DNA of 64,000 nt from Alteraurantiacibacter buctensis. Lineage in GTDB: Bacteria; Pseudomonadota; Alphaproteobacteria; Sphingomonadales; Sphingomonadaceae. Both the position numbers and the translations under genes were made by a program. The notes under the pieces are model-generated. The model was not told the DNA's origin. It saw only the letters and a program-made list of their open reading frames with translations, and ran no database searches. Shown here in pieces: positions 19,427 to 38,146 of this stretch. The stretch is from assembly GCF_009827655.1 (NCBI RefSeq), contig NZ_WTYV01000006.1, forward strand, positions 124,001 through 188,000, given 5' to 3'. Position 1 is the first letter of the stretch. Each line of letters starts with the position of its first letter.

Positions 19427-19443
19427 GTTCTGTCTGGCAGACT
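19427..19443. promoter_or_regulatory. Island operator, site A (upstream of hpaB-like gene)
   Basis: GTTCTG-TCTGG-CAGACT. First of seven copies of a 17-bp dyad with TCTG-N5-CAGA core, located in the divergent region between the monooxygenase operon and the first VAO-type gene. Confidence 0.6.
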
Positions 19444-19494
19444 ACCAGGCATGATCGGGTTGACGAGCAGGACCCGTCACTATAAAAGAACGAG

Positions 19495-19511
19495 GTTCTA
19501 TTAAACAGAAC
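19495..19511. promoter_or_regulatory. Island operator, site B (upstream of first VAO-type gene)
   Basis: GTTCTA-TTAAA-CAGAAC, centred 68 bases from site A in the same divergent region and about 38 bases before the proposed CTG start. Both half-sites are strong. Confidence 0.65.
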
Positions 19512-19548
19512 GCCGTGCACTGACACGGCGCTGGATGGGAGAAGGAAG

Positions 19549-21093
19549 CTGACTACAGGCCCCAAGGCAACGCCCGGTCCGGATGGTGCTGCAATCGCTC
19601 GCGCCGCAGAGCGGTTCGAGCAGTTGCTGGGGCCGCAGGCTGTGCTGCGCGATGCCGCTTCGCTGGTGGAATTCTCCGACCCTTATGCGGGGCCTGACCC
19701 GTCCGCCTATCGCCCCGGGCTGGTGATCCAGCCGGCCAGCACCGAAGAGGTGCGCGCCGCCGTGCTGTTGGCGGGCGAACTGGGCGTGCCTCTGTGGACC
19801 TCGTCGATGGGCCGCAATTTCGGCTATGGCGGATCCTCGCCGGTGGTGGATCGCTCCGTGGTGCTGAACCTGCGGCGGTTGGACCGCATCATCGAGATCG
19901 ATCCGGAGCAGGGCTTCGCGCGGATCGAGCCTGGGGTGACCTTCGCCGGCCTGTACGAGGAACTGCGCGCGCAGGATGCGCCGCTGATGATGTCGGTGCC
20001 CGACCTGGGCTGGGGCAGCATGATCGGCAATGGGCTGGAGCACGGCTACGGATACAACGTGATGGGTGATCACGCCTCGGCCCTGTGCGGACTGGAGGTG
20101 GTGCTGGCCAACGGCGACGTGCTGCGTACCGGGCAGGGCGGGATGCCGGGCAGCCCGCTGTGGTCGTGCCATCGCCGCGGCTATGGACCGTCGCTGGACA
20201 GCCTGTTCATGCAATCGAATTTCGGCGTGGTGACGCAGGCCGGCGTTTGGCTGATGCCGCGCCCGGAAGCCTTCATGATCGGCACCATCACCTGTCACCG
20301 GGATGGCGATATCGTACCACTGGTCGCGCTGCTGCGGCGACTGGTGCGCCGGGGCGTGCTGCAGGGGATCCCGATGATCGTGGGCACACCCGAAGGCGGA
20401 GCCGACGTTTCGCCGGACATGGCGCCGTTCACGCTCGCCAACCTCAAGCAGGTGCTGCGGCCGGGACGCTGGAGCGTGCGTATCGGCCTCTACGGTGACA
20501 AGGAGATGAACCTGGCGCGCCGCGCCATCCTTGCGCGCGAGCTGGCAGAGATTGCGGACGCCGAGCTGGACTTGCGGACCTATCCCGGCAACGCGCGACC
20601 TGACGAGGTTGAGCCACGCGATTACATCTCTGCCGGGATTCCCAACCGCCTGTTGCTTGAGCGGTTGCAGGCGGTTTTCGGCCCTACCTTCGGGCACATG
20701 GACTTTTCCCCGGTGGTTCCGTTGGATGGCGAATGGGCGCTGCGGGTGGACAAGCTGGCCCAGGACACCGCTGCCCGGTACGACCTGATCGCCCCTACCG
20801 GCTTCCTGGTGCAGGAACGCAGCCTGGTGAGCGCGTGCATGGTCATGTTCGATGCCAGCCGGGCCGATCGCGTGGCTGCCGCGCGCGAGGCGGTGGCGAA
20901 GATGTATGCGGCGGCGGCGGAGTGGGGCTGCGCGCCCTATCGCTCGCACATTGCGCTGGCCGACGAGGTCGCCCAGCGCTTCAGCGCCAACGACCATGCC
21001 TATGGCCGCACCTGCACCCGGATCAAGGATGCGCTGGACCCCGCAGGCATCCTCTCGCCCGGCAACCACGGCATCTGGCCCGGTTCCTGCTGA
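19549..21093 (+). CDS. VAO/4-cresol dehydrogenase-type FAD-linked oxidase 1
   Basis: About 514 residues. FAD-binding PCMH domain (N-G-Y-G sector R-N-F-G-Y-G-G-S-S-P, S-V-P-D-L-G-W-G-S-M-I-G-N) and a C-terminal substrate cap. Oxidises para-alkyl phenols through quinone-methide chemistry by family precedent. A His in G-H-M-D-F-S-P-V could be the covalent FAD ligand. No ATG, GTG or TTG occurs in frame between the stop at 19483 and a TTG at 19624, but the translated stretch before that TTG aligns with the N-terminus of the paralogue at 23281. I therefore place the start at CTG 19549, behind GGGAGAAGG; the TTG is the alternative. No cytochrome gene adjoins this copy. Confidence 0.8.
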   Translation: MTTGPKATPGPDGAAIARAAERFEQLLGPQAVLRDAASLVEFSDPYAGPDPSAYRPGLVIQPASTEEVRAAVLLAGELGVPLWTSSMGRNFGYGGSSPVVDRSVVLNLRRLDRIIEIDPEQGFARIEPGVTFAGLYEELRAQDAPLMMSVPDLGWGSMIGNGLEHGYGYNVMGDHASALCGLEVVLANGDVLRTGQGGMPGSPLWSCHRRGYGPSLDSLFMQSNFGVVTQAGVWLMPRPEAFMIGTITCHRDGDIVPLVALLRRLVRRGVLQGIPMIVGTPEGGADVSPDMAPFTLANLKQVLRPGRWSVRIGLYGDKEMNLARRAILARELAEIADAELDLRTYPGNARPDEVEPRDYISAGIPNRLLLERLQAVFGPTFGHMDFSPVVPLDGEWALRVDKLAQDTAARYDLIAPTGFLVQERSLVSACMVMFDASRADRVAAAREAVAKMYAAAAEWGCAPYRSHIALADEVAQRFSANDHAYGRTCTRIKDALDPAGILSPGNHGIWPGSC

Positions 21094-21185
21094 AGCCGGT
21101 CGCAGGGACACCGGCACCGGCGCAATGACGAATTCTGTTGGATCACCTTCCGCCTGAAGCGGAAGAGACAGCGAAGGAAATGAAC

Positions 21186-22460: not shown

Positions 22461-22463
22461 ACG

Positions 22464-23216
22464 GTGAGCGAACCGCTGACGCTGGGGCTGCTTGCGCTGG
22501 CATCGTTCTCAGCCGCGGCGATCAGCGCCAGTGTTTCGGTGGGCGGCGGCTATGTGCTGTTCGGTGCGACGACCTTGCTGTATCCGCTGCCCGTGGCCGT
22601 GGCCCTGCAGCCGGTGCTGTCCTATTCCTCGCTGGTGGCGCGCAGCATTGCCTTTCGCCAGGGGATCGCCTGGCCGATCGTGGGGCCGTTCACGCTGGGT
22701 TCGCTGGCCGGGGTGGCGCTGGGGCTGGTGGTCTACCACGCCATTCCCGAACGGGTCATGGCGCTTGGCGTCGGCAGCCTCATGCTGGTGCTGACCTGGT
22801 GGCGCCTGCCGCTGCCGCACGTCCATTCGCGCGCCGGAATGGCCGGGGTGGGCATGGCCCACGCCCTCAGCGGCACGGTGCTGGGCATGGGATCGATCCT
22901 GCAACCCGTGCTGCTCAACGCCGCGATCGATCGTCGAGCGCTGGTGGGGACCTTTGCTGCCTGTCTGCTGGCGCTGGAGGCGATCCGCGCCGTGGGCTAT
23001 GGCCTCACCGGCTTTTCCTACTGGCCGCTGGCCGCGGCCGTGGCAGTCTCCACCATGGCCGGATTTGCCGGCACCTGGGCTGGAAAGCGCCTGATGGGGT
23101 ATATTCCCGAACGGGCCTTTCGCCTGATCGTCAGCGGCTTGATAACCGCACTGGCCGTGCGCCTGCTGGTCAAGGCGGTACTGCCGGGAATTGACTCATT
23201 CTTACCGAGTTCGTAG
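22464..23216 (+). CDS. TauE/SafE-family membrane permease
   Basis: 250 residues, about eight membrane segments, with the paired G-G-G-Y-V-L-F-G and G-V-G-M-A-H-A-L-S-G repeats typical of TauE/SafE proteins. The GTG start is 4 bases after the MFS stop. The family exports sulfite, sulfoacetate or organic acids; the cargo here is unknown, and its position inside the aromatic island suggests an organic anion. Confidence 0.8.
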   Translation: MSEPLTLGLLALASFSAAAISASVSVGGGYVLFGATTLLYPLPVAVALQPVLSYSSLVARSIAFRQGIAWPIVGPFTLGSLAGVALGLVVYHAIPERVMALGVGSLMLVLTWWRLPLPHVHSRAGMAGVGMAHALSGTVLGMGSILQPVLLNAAIDRRALVGTFAACLLALEAIRAVGYGLTGFSYWPLAAAVAVSTMAGFAGTWAGKRLMGYIPERAFRLIVSGLITALAVRLLVKAVLPGIDSFLPSS

Positions 23217-23229
23217 AATACAGAATAGA

Positions 23230-23246
23230 GGTCTGTTGAACAGAAC
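23230..23246. promoter_or_regulatory. Island operator, site C
   Basis: GGTCTG-TTGAA-CAGAAC, 34 bases before the ATG of the second VAO-type flavoprotein. Matches the island consensus at 11 of 12 half-site positions. Confidence 0.65.
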
Positions 23247-23280
23247 AACCGGCGCGCGTGCCGCCAGCGAGGAACAAAGG

Positions 23281-24825
23281 ATGCCGTCCAGTCCATTGCC
23301 TACCGGCGTTGATGCCGGATCCTTCAGCGCCGCCCTGGCGGCATTCCGCTCTGCTTTGGGCGAGAGCGGTGTGCTCGATACCGACCAGGATCGCCGGACC
23401 TATATCGATCCCTATGCCTTCGGGGACGGGTTGGACCACGAATCCTCGGCCATCCTGGCTCCGGCGGAAGTTGCCGAAGTGCAGGAGGTGGTGCGCATCG
23501 CCAACCGGTTTGGCGTGGCGCTGTGGCCGGTCAGCCGGGGCAAGAACTATGGCTATGGCTCGGCCGCGCCCGTGCGGCGGGGCGATGTGATCCTGGACCT
23601 CAGCCGCATGAACCGGGTGCTGGACGTGGACGTGCAGCAGGCCAACTGCCTGCTGGAACCCGGCGTCAGCTTCTTCGACCTGTTCGATCACCTGTGGGCG
23701 GACAATATCCCGCTGTGGATGTCCGTGCCCGGCAACAGCTGGGGCAGCGTGGTGGGCAACGCGCTGGACCGGGGCATCGGCTACACCCCGCTGGGCGATA
23801 ACTGCGAGGCGATCTGCGGGCTGGAAGTGGTTCTGCCCGATGGCGAGCTAGTCCGCACCGGCATGGCGGCCACGGGCCAGGGGGTGACCTGGCGCAACTA
23901 CAAGTACGGTTATGGCCCCGGCTGGGACCAGATGTTCATGCAATCCAACCTGGGCATCGTCACCAAGGCCGGGCTGTGGCTGCAACCCGAACCGGAGATG
24001 ACGGCGGCGGTGGAGATCGCCTTTCCCAACTTCGACGATGCCGGCTGGGCCATCGACATCCTGTGTGACCTGCGCCGGCGCGACATCATCCAGCACAACA
24101 TCGTGTTCGGCAGCCCCGTGCGTGCCGCTTCGGTGCTGACCCAGCGCGCCGAATGGTACACGGGCGAGGGCGCCCTGCCCGAAGAGGCCGAGCGCGCCAT
24201 GATGGAACGCTTCGGCCTGGGCTGGTGGAACGCCAAGATCAGCTTCTACGGCCCGGAATTCCTGGTGGAAGGTTCCATGCGCCTGTTGCGTGACCTGTTC
24301 GAGGCGCGGCTGGGCAAGCCGCTCGATTTCAAGACCTGGCACAAGGGCCAGCCGTATGAGGGATCAGCCCGGGGAGTGCCCAGCACCGTGGGCCTGCAAT
24401 CGGTCAACTGGTTCGGCGGACGCGGCGGGCACCTCAGCTTTGCCCCGGTCATGCCTCAGGACGGGGCCAGGGTGCTGGCCTATGCCAAGCGGGTGAAGGA
24501 CATCTACCGCGAGGTGGGGCAGGACTATTACGCCACCTTCACAATCGGCCGGCGGCACATCAACAACGTCAGCCTGATCCTGTACGATCGCGACAGTCCG
24601 GCCAGCACCGGGCGTGCCGATACGCTGTTTCGCCGGCTGGTGACCGAAGCCGCGCGCGAAGGCTTTGCCGAATATCGCGGGCACATCGACTATATGGACA
24701 CGATCGCCGCCACCTATGATTTCAACGATCACGCGCTGCTGAAGCTGAACAACAAGGTGAAGGCCGCGCTCGACCCGGGAAACATCATTGCACCCGGGCG
24801 CAACGGCATAGGGGGGCGGGCATGA
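23281..24825 (+). CDS. VAO/4-cresol dehydrogenase-type flavoprotein 2 (flavocytochrome subunit)
   Basis: 514 residues, paralogue of the protein at 19549. FAD-binding motifs S-R-G-K-N-Y-G-Y-G-S-A-A-P and M-S-V-P-G-N-S-W-G-S-V-V-G-N; C-terminal cap with G-H-L-S-F-A-P-V, whose His may hold FAD. The ATG follows GAGG. The stop overlaps the start of a c-type cytochrome gene by 4 bases, the arrangement of 4-cresol dehydrogenase (pchF-pchC) and eugenol hydroxylase, so this copy is likely a dehydrogenase passing electrons to that cytochrome rather than an oxidase. Substrate: a para-substituted phenol, by family. Confidence 0.87.
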   Translation: MPSSPLPTGVDAGSFSAALAAFRSALGESGVLDTDQDRRTYIDPYAFGDGLDHESSAILAPAEVAEVQEVVRIANRFGVALWPVSRGKNYGYGSAAPVRRGDVILDLSRMNRVLDVDVQQANCLLEPGVSFFDLFDHLWADNIPLWMSVPGNSWGSVVGNALDRGIGYTPLGDNCEAICGLEVVLPDGELVRTGMAATGQGVTWRNYKYGYGPGWDQMFMQSNLGIVTKAGLWLQPEPEMTAAVEIAFPNFDDAGWAIDILCDLRRRDIIQHNIVFGSPVRAASVLTQRAEWYTGEGALPEEAERAMMERFGLGWWNAKISFYGPEFLVEGSMRLLRDLFEARLGKPLDFKTWHKGQPYEGSARGVPSTVGLQSVNWFGGRGGHLSFAPVMPQDGARVLAYAKRVKDIYREVGQDYYATFTIGRRHINNVSLILYDRDSPASTGRADTLFRRLVTEAAREGFAEYRGHIDYMDTIAATYDFNDHALLKLNNKVKAALDPGNIIAPGRNGIGGRA

Positions 24826-25262
24826 TGAAGCGGCGCAACCTGGGCCCAATCGCGATTGCGGCTGCCGTCATCGCTCTGGGCGCATGCTACGGCACGCAGG
24901 AACCCGCAGCAGCCAGCACGGGCGCGGCTCCTGCCGTGGCGCAGGCAGCGGCCCCGGCGATGCCGACGCAGGTGGAGGCAGTGACCTTCGGCATGAATTC
25001 AGCCGAGGAGGGCGAGCGGCTCTATGGTCGCGAATGCGCTTTTTGCCACGTGGGCCGCAACACGGGCACCATCATGCTGCAAAAGCGCCTGCCACCAGGA
25101 ACGCCCGCGCAACTGCACGAACGGACAAACCTCCCGGCGGCCTACGTCAGGCTGGTGGTGCGCAACGGGCTGGTCAACATGCCGCCCCTCTCGCGCGCCG
25201 AACTGAGCGATGCGGACCTGGACCTGATCGCGCAATGGCTGGCCGCCGGGAGATCGCGATGA
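24822..25262 (+). CDS. c-type cytochrome subunit, lipoprotein-like
   Basis: 146 residues. The N-terminus has a hydrophobic signal ending L-G-A-C, a likely lipobox, so the protein may be anchored in the periplasm. Single heme site C-A-F-C-H near residue 74 and a distal Met in V-N-M-P-P-L near residue 124. It overlaps the flavoprotein gene by 4 bases and is the probable electron acceptor subunit (PchC/EhyB role). Confidence 0.85.
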   Translation: MMKRRNLGPIAIAAAVIALGACYGTQEPAAASTGAAPAVAQAAAPAMPTQVEAVTFGMNSAEEGERLYGRECAFCHVGRNTGTIMLQKRLPPGTPAQLHERTNLPAAYVRLVVRNGLVNMPPLSRAELSDADLDLIAQWLAAGRSR

Positions 25263-25723
25263 AGCGCCGCAGCGTCCTGGCCGGCGCTGTGGCCACGCCC
25301 GTACTGCTGGGCGTGGGGCTGGACGAGGCTCGGGCGGCGACGGCAACCGCGGTGCCAGCCATGCCTTCGCTCACCTTGTACGATGCGCGCCTGCCGGTGG
25401 CCGAACGGATCGCCTGGCACCTGCATCGCCAGGGCGCGCCCACGCGCCCCACCGGCGGTGAAATCGCCGCCCTGCTGCTGCGCGAGCGGCTGCTTGCTGC
25501 CGATGGCCCGATCCTGGGGTTCACCGGCCATGCCGAATATCTGTTGGCCCGTGACATCGCGCGCGTGGCGGGGCGGCAGGCTGCGCCCCTGATGCGGCTC
25601 GGGCTTGGCCAGGAATGGCTGGGCAGTCCCGCGCAGGACGGGTGGCGGCCACTGCTGGCCGGCCTGTTGCAGGTTGCCGAACCAGACCCGCATGGAGCCA
25701 CCACCTTCGCCTGGGTTGCCTGA
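25259..25723 (+). CDS. Small exported protein with Tat-like signal, unknown function
   Basis: 154 residues; the ATG overlaps the cytochrome stop. M-K-R-R-S-V-L-A-G-A-V begins a Tat-like signal with cleavage near E-A-R-A. The mature domain has paired helical segments with Arg/Leu-rich composition and no motif I know. Translational coupling to the flavocytochrome genes suggests a maturation or third-subunit role. Confidence 0.6.
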   Translation: MKRRSVLAGAVATPVLLGVGLDEARAATATAVPAMPSLTLYDARLPVAERIAWHLHRQGAPTRPTGGEIAALLLRERLLAADGPILGFTGHAEYLLARDIARVAGRQAAPLMRLGLGQEWLGSPAQDGWRPLLAGLLQVAEPDPHGATTFAWVA

Positions 25724-25741
25724 GGCGCACCACGCAAGGGA

Positions 25742-27373
25742 ATGACGGGTCAACCGATGAACCACGCTGAATTCGACTATATCATCGTCGGCGCGGGCAG
25801 TGCGGGGGCGGTGGTCGCCAACCGGTTGAGCGAGGATAGCGGCGCAACCGTGCTGCTGCTGGAAGCCGGAGGGGAAGCCAACCATCCCTATCTCCGCATG
25901 CCGCTGGGCTTCCTCCAGGCGTTGCGCAACCCGCGCCTCACCTGGCCCTTTGTGTCCGAGCCGGAACCACATGTGGGCGGGCGGGTCTTTCCGCTCCCGC
26001 GGGGTCGGGTCCTGGGCGGATCGTCCTCGATCAACGGTACGGTCCACTTCCGCGGCCATCCGCTGGATTTCGACGAATGGGCGTCGCTGGGCTGTACCGG
26101 GTGGGATTACGCTTCCGTACTGCCCTACTTCAAGCGGTCGGAGAATTTCTGGGCGGGTGCCAGCGAGCGGCGGGGTGCCGGCGGGCCAATTGCGGTGCGA
26201 CCGGTGGACTCCTCCCGCCTCATGGGCCGCGAATTGCGCGAAGCTGCCGCCGCGATGGGCGTCGATTATGTCGGTGACTATGATGGCGAGCACAACGAAG
26301 GGCTGGCCGATGTCCACGTGGCCCTCCGCGACGGCAGCCGTTGCGGTGGTGCGCGGGCCTATCTGGATCCGGTGCGCCATTCCCGCGCCAACCTGGCCAT
26401 CTGGACCGGCGCGCAAGCCAGCCGGGTGCTGGTCGAGGGTGGTCGCGCAGTGGGCGTTGCCTTCCAGCGCGGCGGGCAGGCGCAAACGGTACGCGCCCGA
26501 CGCGAGGTGATCCTGTGCGCCGGCACCTATGGCTCGCCGCACCTGCTGCTGCTGTCGGGCATCGGCGACGGGGCGGAACTGGCTGCCCACGGGATCAACG
26601 TGGCGCATCATCTGCCCGGCGTTGGCCGCAACCTGCAGGAACACCCGCGCGTGGCCAACCAGTACCGCGCGCGGCTGGATCACAGCTTCGCCCGCGAACT
26701 GCGGTTTGACCGGGCGGCCGTGTCATTCCTCAACTGGGCGCTGCGCGGTAAGGGACCGTTTGCCAACCAGATCGCCTCGGGCTGCCTGTTGCTGCGCAGC
26801 CGCGACGGGCTGGACCGGCCCGATATCCAGATCATGGTCAGCCCCACACGCGTAGACGCCAACATCTGGTTCCCCGGCGTGCGCAAGGCGGTGGAAGATT
26901 GTTTCTTCGCCTCGATCTGCCTGCTGCGGCCTGCCAGCCGGGGCCACGTGCGGCTGCGCGACGCGAACCCCGCTTCCGCGCCCAGAATCCACCTCAACAT
27001 GCTTTCCGATGCGGATGACTGGCAACGGCTGAAGGATGGCCTGGCCCTGTCGCGCCGCCTGTTTGCGCAAGCGCCACTCGCCGCCCACGTGCTGGAAGAA
27101 AGCGTGCCCGGGCCTGCCAGGGCGAGCGATGCCGGGTTGGACGCCATGCGGGCAGAGCTGGTCGGTGTGGTCCACCACCCGGTGGGCACCTGCGCCATGG
27201 GCACGGACGATGACGCGGTGGTCGATGCACGTCTGCGCGTGCGCGGCGTCGGCGGCCTGCGCGTGATCGATGCCTCGATCATGCCGCGGCTGGTGGGGGC
27301 CAACACCAATGCTGCCGCCGTGATGATCGGCGAGAAGGGGGCGGACATGATCCGCCAGGATGCGAAGGTCTGA
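25742..27373 (+). CDS. GMC-family FAD alcohol dehydrogenase
   Basis: 543 residues. The dinucleotide-binding motif Y-I-I-V-G-A-G-S-A-G-A-V-V starts near residue 11. GMC signature 1 is G-R-V-L-G-G-S-S-S-I-N-G near residue 83. The catalytic His occurs in V-V-H-H-P-V-G-T-C-A-M-G near the C-terminus. Choline-dehydrogenase-like branch; acts on primary or benzylic alcohols. Lying between a para-alkylphenol flavocytochrome and an aldehyde dehydrogenase, it would oxidise the alcohol product to aldehyde. Confidence 0.87.
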   Translation: MTGQPMNHAEFDYIIVGAGSAGAVVANRLSEDSGATVLLLEAGGEANHPYLRMPLGFLQALRNPRLTWPFVSEPEPHVGGRVFPLPRGRVLGGSSSINGTVHFRGHPLDFDEWASLGCTGWDYASVLPYFKRSENFWAGASERRGAGGPIAVRPVDSSRLMGRELREAAAAMGVDYVGDYDGEHNEGLADVHVALRDGSRCGGARAYLDPVRHSRANLAIWTGAQASRVLVEGGRAVGVAFQRGGQAQTVRARREVILCAGTYGSPHLLLLSGIGDGAELAAHGINVAHHLPGVGRNLQEHPRVANQYRARLDHSFARELRFDRAAVSFLNWALRGKGPFANQIASGCLLLRSRDGLDRPDIQIMVSPTRVDANIWFPGVRKAVEDCFFASICLLRPASRGHVRLRDANPASAPRIHLNMLSDADDWQRLKDGLALSRRLFAQAPLAAHVLEESVPGPARASDAGLDAMRAELVGVVHHPVGTCAMGTDDDAVVDARLRVRGVGGLRVIDASIMPRLVGANTNAAAVMIGEKGADMIRQDAKV

Positions 27374-27384
27374 CGGGAGCGCGC

Positions 27385-28875
27385 ATGGACATCGACAGCA
27401 CAGAGGCTTTTCGCCGGGCGCGCGCATGGATCGCGCAGGCCGGGGACCACATCATCGGCGGCGAGCGTGTCCCGGGTCGTGGGGTGGGTATACCCGTGAT
27501 CGACCCCGCCAGCGAGGAGCAGATCGGCGCGATCGCGGCAGGCGATGCGGATGATGTGGGCGCGGCCGTGCAGGCTGCGCGCGACTGCTTCCGCTCGCCC
27601 GCCTGGCGCGACATGGCCCCCGCCGCGCGCGAGGGGCTGCTGCTGCGTCTGGCGGATCTGGTCGAGCGTGAGGCCCCCGTGCTGGCCGCAATCGAGACGC
27701 TGGACAACGGCGTGCCCTATCCGATGGCGCTGGCCATGGCGGGCAAGGGTGGCCCCTCCGCCATCCGTTATAACGCCGGCTGGGCGCGGCGGCTGGGCGG
27801 CGAGGAGGTTACCCCATCGGTCCCGGGCCGCTGGCACGCCTATACCGTCAACGAGCCGGTGGGCGTGGCCGCACTGATCGTGCCGTGGAATGCGCCGCTG
27901 GCGATTGCCTGCAACAAGGTGTCCGCCGCGCTGGCGGCGGGCTGCACTGCCGTGCTCAAACCGGCGGAGCTTGCGCCGATGAGCTGCATCCGGCTGGTCG
28001 AACTGGCGCACGAGGCGGGCTTTCCTGCCGGCGCGATCAACCTGGTCGACGGCACGGGCATCGCCGCCGGGGCGGAACTGGCTGCACATCCGGGCGTGGA
28101 CAAGATCTCGTTCACCGGCTCCACCGCCACCGGGCAGGGGATCATGCGCCAGGCAGCCCAGCGGATCACCCGCATCTCGCTGGAACTGGGCGGGAAGTCA
28201 CCGGTGGTGGTGTTCGATGATGCAAACCTGGCGCGCGCGGTGCCGGGCGTGGGCATGGGCATCTTCGCCAACAGCGGCCAGGTGTGCGCCGCCGGCTCGC
28301 GGCTGTTCCTGCACGATGCGATCTACGGCCGGTTCATGGAACAGCTCTGCGCCTTTGCCGCCGGCCTGAAGGTGGGACCGGGCTCACAGCAGGGCGCGAT
28401 GATCGGCCCGCTGATTTCTGCCCCTCAACGCGACAAGGTGTCCGCCTATGTGGCTGGCGCGGTGGCCGAAGGTGCGCGCGTCGCCTTCCGGGGTGATGTG
28501 CCCGCCGGGCCGGGGTTCTTCCACCCGCTGACCATCCTCGACCAGGTCGATCCCGCGATGCGGGCCGTGCGCGAGGAGATCTTTGGCCCGGTGCTGTGCG
28601 TGATGCGCTTTTACGGTGACGAAACGCTGGAAGCGCTGATGCAGCGTGCCAACGACACCGAATACGGCCTGTCCGCCTATGGCTGGACCACGAGCCTTGA
28701 ACGGGCGCAGGTCATGGCGCGGCACCTGCGCGCGGGATCGGTGAAGATCAACGGCTCGGGCATGGAATTCGCCTTGCCGTTCGGCGGTTTCGGCCAGTCC
28801 GGCCTGGGGCGCGAGAACGGCCGGGCCGGCGTGCTGGCCTTTACCGAGCCCAAAGCCGTGATGATCGGTTACTGA
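27385..28875 (+). CDS. NAD(P)-dependent aldehyde dehydrogenase
   Basis: 496 residues. The catalytic Glu is in L-E-L-G-G-K-S-P-V and the catalytic Cys in N-S-G-Q-V-C-A-A-G-S. The coenzyme-binding G-S-T-A-T-G segment is present. It follows the GMC gene by 11 bases. The likely role is oxidation of the aromatic aldehyde to a carboxylate, completing the side-chain oxidation. Confidence 0.9.
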   Translation: MDIDSTEAFRRARAWIAQAGDHIIGGERVPGRGVGIPVIDPASEEQIGAIAAGDADDVGAAVQAARDCFRSPAWRDMAPAAREGLLLRLADLVEREAPVLAAIETLDNGVPYPMALAMAGKGGPSAIRYNAGWARRLGGEEVTPSVPGRWHAYTVNEPVGVAALIVPWNAPLAIACNKVSAALAAGCTAVLKPAELAPMSCIRLVELAHEAGFPAGAINLVDGTGIAAGAELAAHPGVDKISFTGSTATGQGIMRQAAQRITRISLELGGKSPVVVFDDANLARAVPGVGMGIFANSGQVCAAGSRLFLHDAIYGRFMEQLCAFAAGLKVGPGSQQGAMIGPLISAPQRDKVSAYVAGAVAEGARVAFRGDVPAGPGFFHPLTILDQVDPAMRAVREEIFGPVLCVMRFYGDETLEALMQRANDTEYGLSAYGWTTSLERAQVMARHLRAGSVKINGSGMEFALPFGGFGQSGLGRENGRAGVLAFTEPKAVMIGY

Positions 28876-28891
28876 CGCCCTGCAAGATCGA

Positions 28892-28929
28892 GTGCCTTCT
28901 CCCGGGTGAGGCCGGAAGAAGGCACTTTT
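28892..28929. terminator. Intrinsic terminator between convergent genes
   Basis: Perfect 9-bp stem GTGCCTTCT / AGAAGGCAC followed by TTTT, between the aldehyde dehydrogenase (+) and the carotenoid-oxygenase-type gene (-). Confidence 0.75.
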
Positions 28930-28940
28930 GCCGCAAGAGG

Positions 28941-30416
28941 CTAGGCCGCGGCCTCCAAGGCCGGCAGGACAGACGCGTCCGCCCAGTTGCCGTGCAGGCC
29001 GAACCGCAGCCGCACCGGAATGGAAATCGTGGCGATCGGCCCCTTGGCGATCTCCAGCGCATCGAACAGCAGCAGTTCGCTGGCACGCTCCTCCAGCCGG
29101 TTGACCACCATCACGACCCAGCCGTCTCCCTCGAGCGCATCGGGCGACCGCGGGACGAAGCAGGGTTCCTGGATGCTGGATACCGGGCCAACCCAGTACT
29201 TCTGTTCCTCTCCCGTCTGCACATCGACGAAGCCCAGCGTGTTCATCACCCAGCCTCCGGCGCTGCCGCCCTTCATCTCGACTGGCTGCGCCGGATCGAT
29301 GACGACCATCCAGCCGTAGCGGTATTTCTTGCCGGTGAAGCGGTCATCATACTTGGGGAACTCGCCGATCATGTCGCTCAGGCGCTCGGAATGGTATTCC
29401 TCCTCGTTCTGGCTCAGGTCGACCGTCCAGCGTGTAAGGAAAGTGCTGCCGGCCACCGGATCGAACGGCTTGTCGTTGATGTCGGGGAAGAAGGGCATCA
29501 TGTTGTTGGCCGCTACCGGCAGGTCCAGGATGATCTTCGCGCCTTCGTTCCACGCGTTCATCACGTGGCCGGCGAAGCAGCTGGGGCCCTTGAACCAGCG
29601 GATGTCGGCAGCAGTCGTGCCGGGCTTGCGGGGGACCACGGCCAGATAGCTGGGCAGCGATGTGTCGAACCCGAAGTGGGGCTTCACCGCCTGCAGCCGC
29701 TCCCAGTTGCTGGTCATCGGCATCACCGGGAACAGCGCGTAGTCGCGGGTAATCGCGAAATCGTGCATCATCGCGTAGTAGGGGTTCTGCCACCAGATCT
29801 CGAACAGCAGTTCGCCTTCCGGGCTGATCTCGTAATAGGTCATGTCGGTCGTCAGTATGCCCCTGGAGGCATAGCCGAAGCTGCACAGGTTACCCGTTTC
29901 CGGGTCCGTCTTGGGGTGGGCGCTGAAGGTCTCGCCGGTCATCCGGCCGTCGAAGTCGGTATAGCCATGGGTTTCCAGCGAATGGGGGTCCATCACCAGC
30001 GCGGGCGAATCCTCCTTCAGGGCATAGAGGCGGCCGCCGTGGATATAGGCATTGGTGTTGGCCGTGCCGCGAATCCTGCCCTTCACTTCCTCGTCATCGG
30101 TCAGGGGGTTGCGATAGGCCCCGAACAGCGCGCGCCCGGCTGCGTTCTCCAGCTTCCACTTGTCGGTCTTGGCCCAGCGCTGGCGGTAATCGACCTTGCC
30201 GTCATGGAAGCGGAACATCGAAATCATGCCGTCGCCGTTGAAGGCTATGTCATTACCCAGCTTGGGCGGAAACTGGTGCTCGGGCTGCACGCGGTAGAAG
30301 GTGCCGTTGATCTCCGGCGGAATCGTGCCGCGCACGTCCAGATCCTGCACGTCGGCCTCCACCCGTGAGGGCTTGTTGAAGCCGGTAAAGGCCGGGACAT
30401 CGGGGAAATGCGTCAC
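28941..30416 (-). CDS. Carotenoid-cleavage/lignostilbene dioxygenase family enzyme
   Basis: 491 residues, seven-bladed beta-propeller family with four His iron ligands. These are visible in F-S-A-H-P-K, M-M-H-D-F-A, F-A-G-H-V-M-N-A-W and the C-terminal G-L-H-G-N-W. Bacterial members cleave the double bond of lignostilbenes, resveratrol or isoeugenol to give a benzaldehyde. In this island that fits the supply of hydroxybenzaldehyde units; the true substrate is not determined. Single-gene unit with an operator 14 bases before its ATG. Confidence 0.83.
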   Translation of the reverse strand: MTHFPDVPAFTGFNKPSRVEADVQDLDVRGTIPPEINGTFYRVQPEHQFPPKLGNDIAFNGDGMISMFRFHDGKVDYRQRWAKTDKWKLENAAGRALFGAYRNPLTDDEEVKGRIRGTANTNAYIHGGRLYALKEDSPALVMDPHSLETHGYTDFDGRMTGETFSAHPKTDPETGNLCSFGYASRGILTTDMTYYEISPEGELLFEIWWQNPYYAMMHDFAITRDYALFPVMPMTSNWERLQAVKPHFGFDTSLPSYLAVVPRKPGTTAADIRWFKGPSCFAGHVMNAWNEGAKIILDLPVAANNMMPFFPDINDKPFDPVAGSTFLTRWTVDLSQNEEEYHSERLSDMIGEFPKYDDRFTGKKYRYGWMVVIDPAQPVEMKGGSAGGWVMNTLGFVDVQTGEEQKYWVGPVSSIQEPCFVPRSPDALEGDGWVVMVVNRLEERASELLLFDALEIAKGPIATISIPVRLRFGLHGNWADASVLPALEAAA

Positions 30417-30429
30417 TTTCCTCTCCTGT

Positions 30430-30446
30430 GTTCTTTCTGACAGACC
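30430..30446. promoter_or_regulatory. Island operator, site D
   Basis: GTTCTT-TCTGA-CAGACC, immediately upstream of the carotenoid-oxygenase-type gene. Read on the minus strand it is nearly the same as site F (GGTCTG-N5-AAGAAC). Confidence 0.6.
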
Positions 30447-30587
30447 GCCATTCTATAAAAATTCATGACGATTGTCCAGAAGGGTCACTCATCCATACCT
30501 AACTGTCTGTAAGATAGTAGAAAAAGTAGGGAATTTGAGTGTCATTGACAAACCGCAAATCCGCAGCAATAAGAAAAGAAGAATAGC

Positions 30588-30604
30588 ATTCTGCTAAACA
30601 GAAC
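30588..30604. promoter_or_regulatory. Island operator, site E
   Basis: ATTCTG-CTAAA-CAGAAC, 40 bases before the ATG of the TonB-dependent receptor. The region 30447-30587 to its left is AT-rich and holds another imperfect dyad (CTGTCT-GTA-AGATAG near 30503). Confidence 0.6.
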
Positions 30605-30644
30605 GACTGTCATAGCGCCTTAGGCGGCCGTCCCCGGGAGAAGG

Positions 30645-32960: not shown

Positions 32961-32970
32961 CTTTCCCGAC

Positions 32971-33005
32971 TGGCCTGCCCGCATTGCCGGGCAGGCCATT
33001 CTTTT
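32971..33005 (+). terminator. Intrinsic terminator after TonB receptor
   Basis: Perfect 11-bp stem TGGCCTGCCCG / CGGGCAGGCCA with a 6-base loop, followed by TTCTTTT. Ends the receptor transcript before the gentisate-type operon. Confidence 0.85.
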
Positions 33006-33031
33006 CCCGAACTTTCTAAAAATAGAACATT

Positions 33032-33048
33032 AGTCTGTTAGAAAGAAC
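33032..33048. promoter_or_regulatory. Island operator, site F
   Basis: AGTCTG-TTAGA-AAGAAC, 13 bases before the ATG of the FAH-family gene that opens the ring-cleavage operon. Close to the start codon, so binding here would block transcription. Confidence 0.6.
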
Positions 33049-33061
33049 ATATGGTGACGCT

Positions 33062-33964
33062 ATGAAGGTTGCTCGTTTCGACAATGGCAGGATCGGCCTG
33101 GTGGTCGATGCCGGTCTGATCGACATCAGCGACATTGCCGGGGCGGGCACGGGCGAGTGGCCCGATACCGCATCCTTGCGGCTGATCCGCGACTTTGCCG
33201 CATTGCGCCCGCAACTGGAACTGGCAGCACAGACCCGCCAGGCTGTTCCACTGGACAGCGTGCGCCTGGAAACGCCGGTGCCATGGCCCAGCAAGGTCAT
33301 CGCCTATCCGGTCAACTACCACGCTCACGGCAAGGAAATGGGGGCCGGCTACCGGGCGAAGAACCAGGGCTTCTTCCTCAAGCCGCCGTCTTCGGTCAGC
33401 GGTCCGGCAGACGCCATCGAACTGCCCCTGGTGCCCGGCCGCGAAGTCCACCACGAAGCCGAACTGGGCATCATCATCGGCAAACAATGCCGCGACCTGG
33501 CCCCTGAGAACTGGCGAGAGGCGGTGTTCGGCTATGCCTGCCTCATGGACATGGTGGTCCGTGGCCGCGAGGAGCGGGTCTTCCGCAAGGCCTATGATAC
33601 CTTCTGCCCGGTGGGTCCATGGATCGTGACCGCGGATGAAATCGACCGCCCGGACCAGCTCTCGATGAAGCTGTGGGTCAACGGCGAACTGCGCCAGGCG
33701 GCCAATACCCGCGATCTGGTGCTGGATATCCCGGGCATGGTGGCCACGGCCTCTGCCGTCATGACCCTCTACCCCGGCGATATCATCGCCACCGGCACGC
33801 CCGAAGGCGTGGGCCCGGTGGTCGACGGGGACCTGGTGCGCATCGTGATCGACCAGGTGGGCGAAATGAACCTGCGGGTGATCCAGGGCAGCAGGGGCGC
33901 CACGGAAGTGTTCGCCGACGCTTATGTCCCGCCGATCGTGAAGCAGGAGCTGACCGACCGATGA
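33062..33964 (+). CDS. FAH-family hydrolase, probable maleylpyruvate/fumarylpyruvate hydrolase
   Basis: 300 residues. The metal-binding acidic residues of the fumarylacetoacetate hydrolase family are seen in H-H-E-A-E-L-G-I-I-I-G and C-L-M-D-M-V-V-R-G-R-E. The C-terminal F-A-T-G-T-P-E-G-V-G-type loop is represented by I-A-T-G-T-P-E-G-V-G. It overlaps the dioxygenase gene downstream by 4 bases. It would split the ring-cleavage product into pyruvate plus a C4 or C5 dicarboxylate. No maleylpyruvate isomerase gene is present, favouring direct hydrolysis. Confidence 0.82.
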   Translation: MKVARFDNGRIGLVVDAGLIDISDIAGAGTGEWPDTASLRLIRDFAALRPQLELAAQTRQAVPLDSVRLETPVPWPSKVIAYPVNYHAHGKEMGAGYRAKNQGFFLKPPSSVSGPADAIELPLVPGREVHHEAELGIIIGKQCRDLAPENWREAVFGYACLMDMVVRGREERVFRKAYDTFCPVGPWIVTADEIDRPDQLSMKLWVNGELRQAANTRDLVLDIPGMVATASAVMTLYPGDIIATGTPEGVGPVVDGDLVRIVIDQVGEMNLRVIQGSRGATEVFADAYVPPIVKQELTDR

Positions 33965-34911
33965 GCAGCCAGTCCGCCCCGCTGGACGAACTGTACGCGT
34001 CCTTCGCGTCGCTCAACATGGAGGGTGGCTGGCATCGCCGGTTCCCTGCCCTGTGGAGCGAACCGCGCAAGAATTTCCTGCCGCACATCTGGCACTATGC
34101 GGCGGTCAAGCCGATCCTGGCGCGGGCCGGCGAACTGATCGACACCGCGCTGGCAGAGCGCCGCAACCTGACCATGTTCAACCCGGTGGAAGGCAACGTC
34201 TATGCCACGGTCCGCACGATCGTGGCCGCCTACCAGATGGTTCGTCCCGGCGAATTCGCCCGCGCCCATCGCCACACGCCCAACGCGCTGCGACTTATCC
34301 TTGAAGGCACCGGCACCTTTACCGTGGTTGATGGCAAGGAAGTGGAAATGCGCCCGGGCGACGTGCTGCTGACGCCCAACTGGGCGTGGCATTCGCACGA
34401 GAACAAGGGCTGTGATGACTGCTACTGGATGGACTTCCTCGATGTGCCGCTGGTGCATCTGCTGGAACCGATGTTCTACCAGCCGCACCCCGATGGGCGC
34501 GAAAGCGATGTGGTGCCGCTGGCCGAAGCGCCGATTGCTTTCCGGGCAGATGACATCGCCACTCGCCTCGCTGCGGCCACGCCGGATGCGGCGGGCGTGC
34601 GGCAGGTGACGCTTGGCCCGGCCACTCTGGCCACCCTGGCGCTGGACGTGGTGCAACTGCCCGCCAGCGCCATGTTCGCGCCGCCGAGAGAGACCGCCAA
34701 CGCGGTTTATGCCGTGATGCGCGGCGATGGCGCGCTGATCGTGGAGGACGACCGCACGGCGTGGTCCTTCGGCGATACGATTGCCATGCCTGCCTGGCGT
34801 GAATTCGCGCTGCAGGCCGGTGCCGGTGGTGCGCTGCTGCTGAAGGTATCCGACCGGGCACTTCTCGAAAAACTGGGCTGGTACCGCACTTCCGCGGACC
34901 TGGCCGAATAA
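33961..34911 (+). CDS. Gentisate 1,2-dioxygenase-like bicupin
   Basis: 316 residues, two cupin domains. The N-terminal cupin has the iron ligands H103 and H105 (A-H-R-H-T-P-N-A-L) and a distal His in W-A-W-H-S-H (H144/H146). The C-terminal cupin is degenerate, as in gentisate dioxygenases. Opens the ring between carboxyl- and hydroxyl-bearing carbons. Slightly short of the usual 340-350 residues. 1-Hydroxy-2-naphthoate or salicylate dioxygenase activity is the main alternative. Confidence 0.82.
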   Translation: MSSQSAPLDELYASFASLNMEGGWHRRFPALWSEPRKNFLPHIWHYAAVKPILARAGELIDTALAERRNLTMFNPVEGNVYATVRTIVAAYQMVRPGEFARAHRHTPNALRLILEGTGTFTVVDGKEVEMRPGDVLLTPNWAWHSHENKGCDDCYWMDFLDVPLVHLLEPMFYQPHPDGRESDVVPLAEAPIAFRADDIATRLAAATPDAAGVRQVTLGPATLATLALDVVQLPASAMFAPPRETANAVYAVMRGDGALIVEDDRTAWSFGDTIAMPAWREFALQAGAGGALLLKVSDRALLEKLGWYRTSADLAE

Positions 34912-34957
34912 TCACTGTCGCCGCGACGGGTGTCCGGCGTTGCTTTGGAGAAATACG

Positions 34958-36154
34958 ATGGGCGACAAGCCTCGGGTCACGATCGCAGGCGGGGGTATCG
35001 GCGGCATGGCGGCAGCCCTGACGCTGCTGCAACGCGGCTTCCCGGTCAGGATTTACGAGCAGGCACCCGAACTGGGCGAGGTGGGGGCGGGCGTCCAGAT
35101 CAGCCCCAATGGATCGCGGGCGCTGGATTCGCTGGGCGTATATGAGACTTTGCGGGCCCTGTCGTGCCAGCCCAAGCGCAAGGAGTTCCGGTTGTGGAAC
35201 ACCGGCCGCTCTTGGCCAATGTTCGACCTGGGCAAGGAAGCCATCGAAAAGTACGGCTATCCCTACCTTACCGTATATCGCCCGGACCTGCTGTCCACGC
35301 TGGTAGACGCGGTCAGGGCGCTGGACCCCGATGCCATCCGGCTGGGCTGCGAAGTGGTGAGCGCCGAAGCCGATGACGAGCGCGCCGTGTTGGTCCTGAA
35401 GGATGGCGAACGGATCGAAAGCGATATCCTGATCGGCGCCGACGGGGTCAAGTCCATCGTGCGCAAGGCACTGTTCGGTGACGACCATACCGAGTTTACC
35501 GGCATGATCGCCTGGCGGGCGGTGATCCCGATGGAGCGCCTGCCCGAGCGGTTCCGGGAGATGGTCGGCTGGACCTGGATCGGACCCGGCGGGCACCTGG
35601 TCAACTATCCGCTGCGCGGCGGCCAGCTGATGAACATGATCGGCACCATCGAGCGCGACGACTGGAAGGTGGAATCCTGGTATGCCGAAGGCTCGATCGA
35701 AGAATGCTTGCGGGACTTTGCCGGCTGGCACGAGGATGTGCAGACGCTGATCCGCGCCGCGCCCAAGGTGCTGAAGTGGGCGTTCATGGAGCGCAAGCCC
35801 CGCCAGATCTGGAGCAAGGGTCGCGCCAGCCTGCTGGGCGATGCCAGCCACGCGACGTTGCCGTTCCTGGCGCAGGGTGCGGTGATGTCGATCGAGGACG
35901 GCGTGGTGCTGGGCCGCTGCCTGGACAAATATGCCGATCCGGTCGTCGCGCTCAAGAAGTACGAGGAGGCCCGCGTCGAACGGACCAGCAAGATGGTGCG
36001 CGGGGCCAAGGAAAACACCGCCCGCTTCCACGAATCCGCCCTGGCCACCGAGGAAGGTGCCGTAACCTACATGGAAAGCGAATGGAGCCGCGACCCGATC
36101 CGCGAACGCTATGACTGGCTCTATCGCTACAACGTGGAGACCGTACCGGTATGA
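34958..36154 (+). CDS. FAD-dependent aromatic hydroxylase (3-hydroxybenzoate 6-hydroxylase/salicylate hydroxylase-like)
   Basis: 398 residues from the ATG behind GGAGA. Class A flavoprotein monooxygenase: I-A-G-G-G-I-G-G-M-A-A-A at the N-terminus, G-A-D-G-V-K-S near residue 156, and G-D-A-S-H-A-T-L-P-F-L-A-Q-G-A near residue 290. Adjacent to a gentisate-type dioxygenase, 6-hydroxylation of a 3-hydroxybenzoate to a gentisate is the natural reading. Its stop overlaps the CoA-transferase start (ATGA). Confidence 0.85.
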   Translation: MGDKPRVTIAGGGIGGMAAALTLLQRGFPVRIYEQAPELGEVGAGVQISPNGSRALDSLGVYETLRALSCQPKRKEFRLWNTGRSWPMFDLGKEAIEKYGYPYLTVYRPDLLSTLVDAVRALDPDAIRLGCEVVSAEADDERAVLVLKDGERIESDILIGADGVKSIVRKALFGDDHTEFTGMIAWRAVIPMERLPERFREMVGWTWIGPGGHLVNYPLRGGQLMNMIGTIERDDWKVESWYAEGSIEECLRDFAGWHEDVQTLIRAAPKVLKWAFMERKPRQIWSKGRASLLGDASHATLPFLAQGAVMSIEDGVVLGRCLDKYADPVVALKKYEEARVERTSKMVRGAKENTARFHESALATEEGAVTYMESEWSRDPIRERYDWLYRYNVETVPV

Positions 36155-37350
36155 GCGGATCGCTCCCGCCCGCGCGGCACCTGCAGGGTGTGCGGGTGCT
36201 GGACCTGACGAATATCCTCTCCGGCCCCTATGCGGCCTTCCAGATGGCGCTGCTGGGTGCCGAGGTGATCAAGGTGGAACGCCCCGACGGGGGTGACCTT
36301 GCGCGGCGGCTGGGGGCCGATCCGGCCCTGAACGAGCAGTTGATGGGGACATCGTTCCTGGCCCAGAACGCGGGCAAGAAGTCGGTGACGATCGACCTCA
36401 AGAATGCCGAGGGCCGGGCGCTGTTCCTGAAGCTGGTGGCCAGTGCCGACGTGCTGATCGAGAATTTCCGGCCCGGCGTGATGGATCGCCTCGGGCTGGG
36501 CTATGCGGCGCTGAAGGCGGATAATCCTCGGCTGGTCTATTGCGCTGTTTCGGGCTTTGGCCAGGAAGGGCCGCTCAGCGGCAATCCGGCCTATGACCAG
36601 ATCATCCAGGGCTATTCCGGCGTGATGAGCGTTACCGGTGATGCGGATTCTGCACCGCTGCGGGTGGGCTACCCGCTGTGCGATACGCTGGGCGGCCTGC
36701 TGGCATCCTTCGCCATCAGCAGCGCCCTCTATGCGCGCGAGAAGAGCGGCCACGGCGAATTCATCGACGTGTCCATGCTGGACGCAACCATCTCTGCCAT
36801 GGGCTGGGCCGTGTCGAACTATCTTATCGCCGGCGTCGAGGCGCGGCCGATCGGCAACCAGAATATGACGGCCGCCCCCTCCGGCGCCTTTACCGCGTCA
36901 GACGGGCAGATCAACGTGGCGGCCAACAAGCAGGAGCAGTTCGTCGCCCTGTGCCGGGTGATGGGCCTGGCAGAACTGCTGGACGATCCCCGCTTTGCCG
37001 AGCGCGAGGCGCGCAAGCGCCACCGCGACGAGCTGAACGGCATCCTCAACGCCGTTTTCCGCACCCGCACGGCGGCGGAGTGGGAAGATGACCTCAACCG
37101 CGCCAACGTGCCGGCCGGGCAGATCCTCACCGTGCCGCAGGCGCTCAACCATCCGCAGGTTGCCCAGCGCGCGCTGGTGCAGGAGGTGGGCGGTATCCGC
37201 ATCGCGCGCAGCGGCTTTCGTTTTGCCGATACCCAGCCCGACGCTGCCTGCGCCCCGCCCCGGCTGGGCGAGCACAATGCCGAAATCTTCGGCGACCTGG
37301 GGGTGGCCGAACAGGAGCTTGCACGCCTGCACGAAGCAGGTGCCATCTGA
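36151..37350 (+). CDS. Family III CoA-transferase (CaiB/BaiF)
   Basis: 399 residues. N-terminal V-L-D-L-T-N-I-L-S-G-P-Y, the I-E-N-F-R-P-G-V motif, and the catalytic Asp in D-V-S-M-L-D-A-T near residue 206. It moves CoA between acyl-CoA and a carboxylate. Co-transcribed with the ring-cleavage genes, a role in activating the dicarboxylate released by the FAH-family enzyme (for example citramalate) is proposed. Direct activation of an aromatic acid is the alternative. Confidence 0.85.
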   Translation: MSGSLPPARHLQGVRVLDLTNILSGPYAAFQMALLGAEVIKVERPDGGDLARRLGADPALNEQLMGTSFLAQNAGKKSVTIDLKNAEGRALFLKLVASADVLIENFRPGVMDRLGLGYAALKADNPRLVYCAVSGFGQEGPLSGNPAYDQIIQGYSGVMSVTGDADSAPLRVGYPLCDTLGGLLASFAISSALYAREKSGHGEFIDVSMLDATISAMGWAVSNYLIAGVEARPIGNQNMTAAPSGAFTASDGQINVAANKQEQFVALCRVMGLAELLDDPRFAEREARKRHRDELNGILNAVFRTRTAAEWEDDLNRANVPAGQILTVPQALNHPQVAQRALVQEVGGIRIARSGFRFADTQPDAACAPPRLGEHNAEIFGDLGVAEQELARLHEAGAI

Positions 37351-37394
37351 TGGTGCGACTACTGGCAGGAGTGCCCCGGCGGGCCCGGCTTCCG

Positions 37395-38138
37395 TCAGAT
37401 ATCGCGGAACAGGCCCGACTGTGCCCCCAGCATCCGCGACAGGGTGACCGCCTGGTCCGCCAGTTGCGGGCCCAGCGTCTTGGCGCGCTCCTCGTTCATG
37501 CGCGATGTGGGGCCGGACAGGGTCAGCACCCCGACCAGGTCATTCCCTTGGCCGAACACCGGCACAGCCAGCGCCGCCATTTCCGGCGTCACCGTGCCGA
37601 ACGAACTGAACACCAGGTCGTCCACCGTATAAGGCCCCTGCACGGTTTCGAACCGGCGGAAGGCCTGCGAGGATGCCCCCTTGTCGATCGGGCGGCGGTC
37701 GCCCAGCCGGATGGTGTAGTCGCGGATCGTCTGGTTGCCGTCCACGCGGAACAGGCACATCTGCTCGTCGCCGGCGCGAATGAAGAAGCTGGCCCCTTCG
37801 CCGGTCGTTTCCACCAGCCGCTCCAGCGTGGGCTGGACGAACTGGCGCAGGTCGAACGAATCCTGGTAGATGCTGGACAGGTCCAGCACGGCCGGACCCA
37901 GCTGATAGTGCCCGTCGGCCCGCTGGACCACGAACAGGCTCTTTTCCAGCGACCCCAGCAAACGCAGGATCGTGCTCTTGTAAAGCCCGGTGTTGCGCGA
38001 AATCTCGGCAAGCGAGAGCACCGGCTTGCGATGGGTAAATGCGCTGATGATGGCGAATGCGCGATCGACCGCAGCGACCCCGCCCTTGGAACCCGTCACT
38101 TGATTATCCCTTCCGCCTTGCGGATCGATGTTCTTCAT
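37395..38138 (-). CDS. IclR-family transcriptional regulator
   Basis: 247 residues from ATG 38138. N-terminal winged helix-turn-helix (F-A-I-I-S-A-F, L-S-L-A-E-I-S-R-N-T-G-L-Y-K-S-T-I-L-R-L-L). The C-terminal effector domain has G-A-S-F-F-I-R-A-G and the conserved A-L-A-V-P-V-F patch. IclR proteins commonly sense aromatic or organic acids. An island-type palindrome straddles the start codon, suggesting autoregulation and making this the leading candidate for the protein that reads the seven sites. Confidence 0.88.
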   Translation of the reverse strand: MKNIDPQGGRDNQVTGSKGGVAAVDRAFAIISAFTHRKPVLSLAEISRNTGLYKSTILRLLGSLEKSLFVVQRADGHYQLGPAVLDLSSIYQDSFDLRQFVQPTLERLVETTGEGASFFIRAGDEQMCLFRVDGNQTIRDYTIRLGDRRPIDKGASSQAFRRFETVQGPYTVDDLVFSSFGTVTPEMAALAVPVFGQGNDLVGVLTLSGPTSRMNEERAKTLGPQLADQAVTLSRMLGAQSGLFRDI

Positions 38139-38146
38139 AGCGGAAC
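38130..38146. promoter_or_regulatory. Island operator, site G (over the iclR start codon)
   Basis: GTTCTT-CATAG-CGGAAC. Same 6-5-6 geometry as the other sites, with two substitutions; the central CAT is the complement of the iclR ATG. It also lies about 50 bases upstream of the divergent HMG-CoA-lyase-like gene. Confidence 0.45.

Follow-up and report, generated by a model that had tools for sequence, protein, structure and literature searches.

Which regulator, if any single one, governs the aromatic-compound island of Alteraurantiacibacter buctensis is the question raised by a palindrome that recurs at its promoters. The island lies in a 64,000-nucleotide stretch of contig NZ_WTYV01000006.1 (positions 124,001–188,000), referred to here as the window, whose own coordinates are used throughout. 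An earlier note, made from the sequence alone, had described seven copies of a 17-bp dyad, GTTCTG-N5-CAGAAC, as one regulon read by either an IclR-family or a TetR-family protein encoded in the island. Our analysis makes it very probable that the seven sites are operators of one regulon and that their reader is the island's own IclR (37395–38099). All seven are present, with 2, 1, 1, 2, 1, 3 and 2 mismatches to the dyad at 19427, 19495, 23230, 30430, 30588, 33032 and 38130, respectively. The 17-bp palindrome stands as a core but is incomplete, the conserved unit being a 26-bp, three-box operator with a third half-site, YAGAAY-N3-GTTCTG-N5-CAGAAC. The sites are as follows.

19418–19443, minus strand: operator of the hpaB operon; palindrome 19427–19443, gene-side third box 19418–19423, minus-strand GGTCTA
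19486–19511, plus strand: three-box operator of the flavoprotein gene VAO1; box 1 AAGAAC 19486–19491, palindrome 19495–19511
23221–23246, plus strand: three-box operator of the unit VAO2–cytochrome c–GMC oxidoreductase–aldehyde dehydrogenase; box 1 CAGAAT, palindrome 23230–23246
30430–30455, minus strand: three-box operator of the lignostilbene-alpha,beta-dioxygenase gene (LSD); palindrome 30430–30446, box 1 TAGAAT 30450–30455
30579–30604, plus strand: three-box operator of the TonB-dependent receptor gene (TBDR); box 1 AAGAAT, palindrome 30588–30604, with TTGACA at 30545–30550
33023–33048, plus strand: three-box operator of the operon for an FAH-family hydrolase, a cupin dioxygenase, an FAD monooxygenase and a CoA-transferase; box 1 TAGAAC, palindrome 33032–33048
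38130–38146, between iclR (minus) and the HMGL–aconitase unit (plus): operator with no clear third box

The placement claimed for these sites, 0–75 bases from the start of a unit, applies to six of them (75 bases from the start codon at hpaB, 35 at VAO2 with its ATG at 23281, 14 at LSD, 41 at the TonB receptor, 14 at the FAH operon and 31 at iclR); at VAO1 the distance is 38 or 113, depending on the start codon. The VAO1 frame has no ATG, GTG or TTG ahead of 19624, and CTG 19549 behind GGAGAAGGAAG may be its start. Site 38130 faces two units, iclR and HMGL–aconitase, the second of which was absent from the earlier note.

The third box is held at a fixed position. Of 46 sites at VAO1, VAO2, TBDR, FAH, LSD and MFS, 38 have a YAGAAY box, matching at five or more of six positions, at a distance of exactly 3 bp from the outer end of the palindrome; this corresponds to an offset of −9, the mean over all scanned offsets being 1.16 (sites oriented to the nearest gene). 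Of 11 hpaB sites, seven have the box on the side facing the gene; at the sites in the iclR–HMGL gap the box is weak, being present in 2 of 11. Within the window alone the outer box is on the promoter side at five of the seven sites (binomial 5e-7 at the promoter-gap base rate). A seed-free search for exact dyads, window included, returns GTTCT-N7-AGAAC as the best, in 22 of 59 promoter gaps against 0 of 70 control gaps, followed by AGAAC-N3-GTTCT in 10 of 59 against 0 of 70; this second dyad is part of the same operator. The layout of a third half-site with alternating direction and fixed spacing is, on sequence, that of an IclR three-box operator.

The full site is almost exclusive to the island. 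At up to two mismatches, all five places in the genome's own sequence are in the island, as are 32 of 32 in eight relatives, one of which (G434 C33:29889) is at the island edge. At exactly three mismatches the own genome has two places, one in the island (hpaB) and one elsewhere, and the eight relatives together add 45, of which 20 are within the island or next to it and the other 25 are not. The reversed pattern, counted in these relatives at up to three mismatches, totals 10. In two genomes an additional aldehyde dehydrogenase at the edge of the island also has an operator-like site nearby (G434 C33:29889–29914 and L090:5409), and these dehydrogenases are possible additional members of the regulon.

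The raw dyad behaves differently from the 26-bp site, and the argument that it recurs too often for chance fails as a plain count and holds once the motif is refined. At up to three mismatches the window contains 25 dyads, with 18.5 ± 4.2 expected and 25 or more in 9 of 100 shuffles. At one mismatch or none, the 3.77-Mb genome has nine places (reversed-pattern control, 1), three of them within the 19-kb stretch that holds the seven sites. The other six, which we take as chance matches, lie inside open reading frames (ORFs) of 468–619 amino acids (L116–L118), of 305 amino acids (L114) and of 81 and 94 amino acids (L119), or outside ORFs of at least 80 amino acids (L115). The refined consensus GTTCTGTTNAACAGAAC is found at up to three mismatches in three genome places, all in the island, with the reversed control likewise giving three; the four weaker of the seven sites differ from it by more than three mismatches. 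With leave-one-out matrices built from the other six sites, six of the seven rank first among 63,984 window positions and 38130 ranks second.

Conservation between genomes, together with the near-confinement of the full site to the island, supports a single regulon. Close orthologues of IclR are rare: they were found in 2 of 60 relatives searched (88 and 87% identity), at three loci of a further contig search (88, 79 and 87%, two of the three seemingly on the same contigs as before; a fourth match, L037, is short, at 59%) and, at 57% or more, in 7 of 397 sampled family genomes, this one included. A relative at 54% lies on a plasmid of Novosphingobium humi, and the IclR relatives from the plasmid search, comprising 146 records, are all below 60% identity; 12 of these records were examined, one of which holds an island while the remaining 11 do not. 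Across the nine further islands mapped, IclR is surrounded by a largely identical set of gene units, split over two contigs in G063 and with the hpaB–VAO1 block moved relative to the LSD block in G205, G445, G434 and N. humi. Across these nine islands, a matrix made from the seven window sites only, with each gap scored against its own order-1 Markov background, detects a site at p<0.01 in 48 of 53 promoter gaps (44 at p<0.001), against a single one of the 62 gaps that are convergent or lie inside an operon. In G205 and G445 a site upstream of MFS is present in place of the one between TauE and VAO2. The gap between iclR and HMGL carries the palindrome in 10 of 10 genomes, as is characteristic of an autoregulated local IclR regulon with an operator in its own divergent promoter.

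A strict 17-bp pattern, GTTCTNTTNAANAGAAC, occurs in 7 of the 397 family genomes (reversed control, 0 among the matches listed), three of which have the IclR orthologue (hypergeometric 1e-4). The four others lack the island IclR: in G123 the perfect palindromes are inside a long ORF that is present twice (phage-like by eye), and in G069, G223 and G372 they are beside a LysR-type gene (identity by eye). Because these matches are off the island, the 17-bp palindrome alone is an unsafe marker and the 26-bp form a better one.

The proposed reader is encoded next to the seventh site.

37395–38099, minus strand: iclR, IclR-family regulator of 234 amino acids with a GTG start; Pfam HTH_IclR and IclR_C above cut-off

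Both domains place it in the family (PF09339, 46.1 bits, cut-off 22; PF01614, 50.6 bits, cut-off 24). Its best NCBIfam model is that of PcaR/PcaU/PobR (TIGR02431), at 90 bits against a cut-off of 284.75, so that it is not assigned to this subfamily, although it may work in a similar manner. Among 25 IclR homologues of 36–46% identity outside the island (12 from other genomes of the class, two from the family and, on plasmids, 11 chosen from the first 20 of the 146 records listed), a significant match to the motif lies within 300 bp upstream of 14, in contrast to none of 25 in the downstream control; the carriers comprise seven from the class, one from the family and six from plasmids. No motif was found upstream of nine homologues of 34% identity or less. 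Several distant carriers have a second, weaker operator-like site 20–21 bp away. Two operator-like copies 20 bp apart, a tandem form of the three-box spacing, are seen upstream of the distant IclR genes of L091, L121, L122, L126, L127 and L103.

The recognition helix of IclR reads TGLYKST and contains Tyr40. This residue, chosen post hoc from the first 70 alignment columns (uncorrected p 0.001, distant carriers), is present in 9 of 9 island proteins and 14 of 14 distant motif carriers, compared with 6 of 14 non-carriers. Judged by eye from the conserved GLxKST context, it seems to be position 27 in the numbering of Suvorova and Gelfand; that study treats position 27 as a specificity position, but the motif position to which it is linked there is not the one changed in the present consensus (PMC8222616).

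The TetR protein appears to have a site of its own.

16720–17409, minus strand: tetR, in the gene run hpaB–flavin reductase–tetR–FAD synthetase; Pfam TetR_N and TetR_C_30
19375–19392, minus strand: second palindrome, TGAATACAACTGTGTTCA, between hpaB and the first IclR site; candidate TetR operator

This palindrome, TGAACACAGTTGTATTCA, was noticed in an alignment, and the pattern used to search for it was written after viewing that alignment. The copy upstream of the hpaB–tetR run, TGAAnACAnnTGTnTTCA, is the sole place in the own genome within one mismatch. At up to three mismatches it is the only match in the window, though 41 of 100 shuffles hold one or more. All 10 genomes have it in their hpaB gap, nine with 0–1 mismatch and G127 with three, and other scored gaps hold it within three mismatches only in N. 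humi (LSD/TBDR and TBDR/FAH) and G434 (TBDR/FAH). Since tetR belongs to this gene run, the palindrome is probably a TetR operator and TetR a second, local regulator of the run.

Three observations narrow the earlier choice of reader, IclR or TetR, to IclR: the motif accompanies distant IclR homologues, its three-box layout is of the IclR type, as PMC8222616 describes for this family, and TetR has a separate and better candidate site, conserved upstream of its own run. That TetR reads the GTTCTG sites is, in our estimate, highly improbable. Its orthologues are found in 7 of 394 family genomes, the same seven as IclR, so the family sample cannot separate the two proteins; the distant homologues do. 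A search of the eight chromosomal motif carriers with the island TetR gave nothing in six of them and a single weak match in each of the other two (23 and 30%), and in G123 and G069, which bear the motif but lack the island, it gave matches of 25–36% only; among these carriers the motif is therefore not confined to genomes with a TetR orthologue. An equally poor candidate is another IclR paralogue, of which the own genome has four at 25–28% identity. The invariable presence of the operator beside the island iclR speaks for the latter, and six homologues below 32% identity in other genomes lack the motif upstream. Chance matches, or a shared promoter element without a dedicated regulator, would explain the unremarkable raw dyad count in the window and the strict matches in the four genomes without the island IclR, but are practically irreconcilable with the contrast between promoter and control gaps and with three-box matches of which 37 of 37, in nine genomes, are in the island or at its edge.

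Several points nevertheless weigh against a uniform regulon read by IclR. Five promoter gaps were missed in the other islands (VAO1/MFS in G061, G063 and N. humi; TauE/VAO2 in G205 and G445), and the matrix scan finds no site in the VAO1/MFS gap of the window (p 0.15). No site was found close to LSD in the islands of G205, G445, G434 and N. humi, and hence LSD control may differ there. Site 38130 is the weakest of the seven, and its want of a clear third box adds to this. In 11 of the 25 distant IclR homologues the motif was not found in the 300 bp upstream, and the association with Tyr40 carries the post hoc choice of that residue. The genome-wide TetR search covered only the eight chromosomal ones among the 14 carriers, and overlap in the family between IclR and TetR is complete. 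The genome counts are not independent, because congeners (G205 and G445; G062 and G293) are included and Azospirillum accounts for three of the 14 distant carriers. The sites themselves, their conservation, the third box, the island exclusivity and the linkage to IclR are direct results of the computation; binding by IclR to the GTTCTG sites, and its release by an effector, would be the most plausible explanation of them.

The mode of action is suggested by predicted promoters. At LSD, TGGACA-N17-TAGAAT is predicted in six genomes (the window, G061, G062, G063, G293 and G127) with box 1 as its −10; in the window the predicted −35, TGGACA, is at 30473–30478, and box 1, TAGAAT 30450–30455, doubles as the predicted −10. 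The VAO2 operator is directly downstream of a predicted TTGACT-N17-TAGAAT (23191–23219), its centre about 12 bp past the predicted start in five genomes, with spacers of 17–19. At iclR, TTGACA is invariant in nine aligned sequences; in the window it is at 38159–38164 (minus strand), and the palindrome covers the expected −10, being itself a poor −10. For several other island units the promoter prediction found no good promoter. Operators overlap three predicted promoters, which makes it rather probable that the units are repressed and that a pathway compound lifts this repression, although the starts are themselves predictions; the operator positions at iclR, LSD and VAO2 fit repression and autoregulation. 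IclR dimers, probably as a tetramer, would bind the palindrome and the third box 3 bp outward of it (promoter side at five sites, gene side at hpaB), lying across the −10 or the transcription start and keeping the phenol-degradation units and iclR itself off. Binding of a pathway compound to the C-terminal domain would then cause IclR to let go, and TetR, acting at its own palindrome upstream of the hpaB–tetR run, would add a second, local control.

PcaU and PobR, IclR-family regulators with three-box sites, are activators, which tells against repression here. An IclR that reads these sites and chiefly activates in the manner of PcaU and PobR, repressing only itself, would agree with the best NCBIfam model, far below cut-off as it is, and with the three-box sites known for PcaU (PMC8222616). 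We consider it unlikely, though a serious competitor, because the operators are at about +5 (LSD) and +12 (VAO2) of the predicted promoters, a position typical of repression; repression remains the reading that we prefer.

The regulon is a new example within the known three-box regulons of the IclR family, its palindrome being a variant of the group-1 site. As described by Suvorova and Gelfand 2021 (PMC8222616), group-1 sites are 17-bp, odd-length palindromes, GTTYCRYW3RYGRAAC, with a GTT-11-AAC subgroup; three-box sites occur in 32 of 181 IclR groups, and tandem sites are 18–22 nt apart. The sites described here resemble the GTT-11-AAC subgroup in palindrome length, in having most centres between −20 and −80 relative to the gene start, in their association with aromatic regulons and in the tandem spacing. 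They differ in that GTTCTGTTNAACAGAAC has the symmetric changes C5 to T and G13 to A (GTTCT...AGAAC), the other positions agreeing, and a GTTCT...AGAAC group may already be among the 181. With the PcaU, PobR and HmgR operators of that text they share a palindrome plus an external half-site in direct repeat, the IclR family and aromatic regulons; unlike these they have the half-site GTTCTG, spacings of N3 and N5, and seven sites in one island. A further parallel from a sphingomonad is PheR of Sphingobium SHPJ-2 (PMC13273656), an IclR-family protein that represses the uptake and breakdown of aromatic compounds until it is released by substrate; its reported core is GCAACG, in a 44-bp, GC-rich operator. 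The pin cluster of Novosphingobium rhizosphaerae LY (PMC12607616), a sphingomonad lignin-dimer cluster with a lignostilbene dioxygenase relative, differs in that its main text does not mention IclR, gentisate, TonB or CoA-transferase. A study using DNA affinity purification sequencing (DAP-seq) covers IclR proteins of N. aromaticivorans (PMC12352068). Among the open-licence papers listed for these subjects, we recognised no description of the island, its regulator or the motif.

The genes proposed to be under this control are the following.

17904–19352, minus strand: HpaB-family flavin monooxygenase
19624–21093, plus strand: VAO1, vanillyl-alcohol/eugenol-oxidase-like flavoprotein; true start probably upstream
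23281–24825, plus strand: VAO2, eugenol oxidase/p-cresol methylhydroxylase-like
24822–25262, plus strand: cytochrome c, after VAO2
25742–28875, plus strand: GMC oxidoreductase (25742–27373) and aldehyde dehydrogenase (27385–28875)
28941–30416, minus strand: LSD, NCBIfam NF053778
30645–32960, plus strand: TBDR
33062–37350, plus strand: FAH-family hydrolase, gentisate-dioxygenase-like cupin, FAD monooxygenase and class III CoA-transferase
38191–41662, plus strand: HMGL-like lyase and aconitase-family hydratase; start ATG 38191 from the alignment, 38128 in the ORF list

Between cytochrome c and the GMC gene about 480 bp (25262–25742) have no assigned gene, and the length is similar in eight other islands scored. 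LSD is firmly a lignostilbene dioxygenase (NF053778, 853.6 bits, cut-off 800), and the cupin is below the equivalog cut-off for a gentisate dioxygenase. The closest solved relatives of VAO2 are an unnamed oxidoreductase, 4-allylsyringol and eugenol oxidases, and p-cresol methylhydroxylase; those of the FAD enzyme are tropone 2-monooxygenase and decarboxylative vanillate 1-hydroxylase. A pinoresinol pathway was considered as the identity of the island and rejected. Beside the island, 42009–55574 is a mobile or prophage-like module with an IrrE-like peptidase, a ParB-like protein (just under cut-off), a large serine recombinase (43984–45525), a phage lysozyme and a tail collar protein; within it, a small ORF (46063–46446) has a weak match to the RNA polymerase alpha C-terminal domain, just under cut-off.

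The VAO oxidases, cytochrome c, GMC and aldehyde dehydrogenases, FAD enzyme, cupin, FAH hydrolase, CoA-transferase, lyase and hydratase lead us to propose a lignin-type phenol route: the gene content suggests that such phenols are oxidised at the side chain and cleaved, after which the ring of a hydroquinone is opened. As a whole, a more detailed version is tentative. An IclR clade with Tyr40, found in Alphaproteobacteria and at least one Betaproteobacterium, might read the variant three-box GTTCT...AGAAC operator; in sphingomonads, seven such operators might govern an entire route that is as yet uncharacterised. VAO-type oxidases, together with the lignostilbene dioxygenase, would turn lignin-type phenols into acids, the FAD enzyme related to decarboxylative vanillate 1-hydroxylase would yield a hydroquinone and the cupin would open the ring towards CoA-linked acids, with TetR as a second gate on the HpaB hydroxylase.

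The analysis turns a sequence-based hunch into a testable regulon, in which operators are defined at the base level, a reader and a second regulator are proposed by name and promoters are predicted, and it singles out Tyr40 as a residue that may contribute to DNA specificity among IclR-family proteins. Uptake through the TonB receptor is thereby joined with the oxidation of side chains and the cleavage of stilbenes and rings in one pathway that is probably co-induced, which narrows the search for its substrate.

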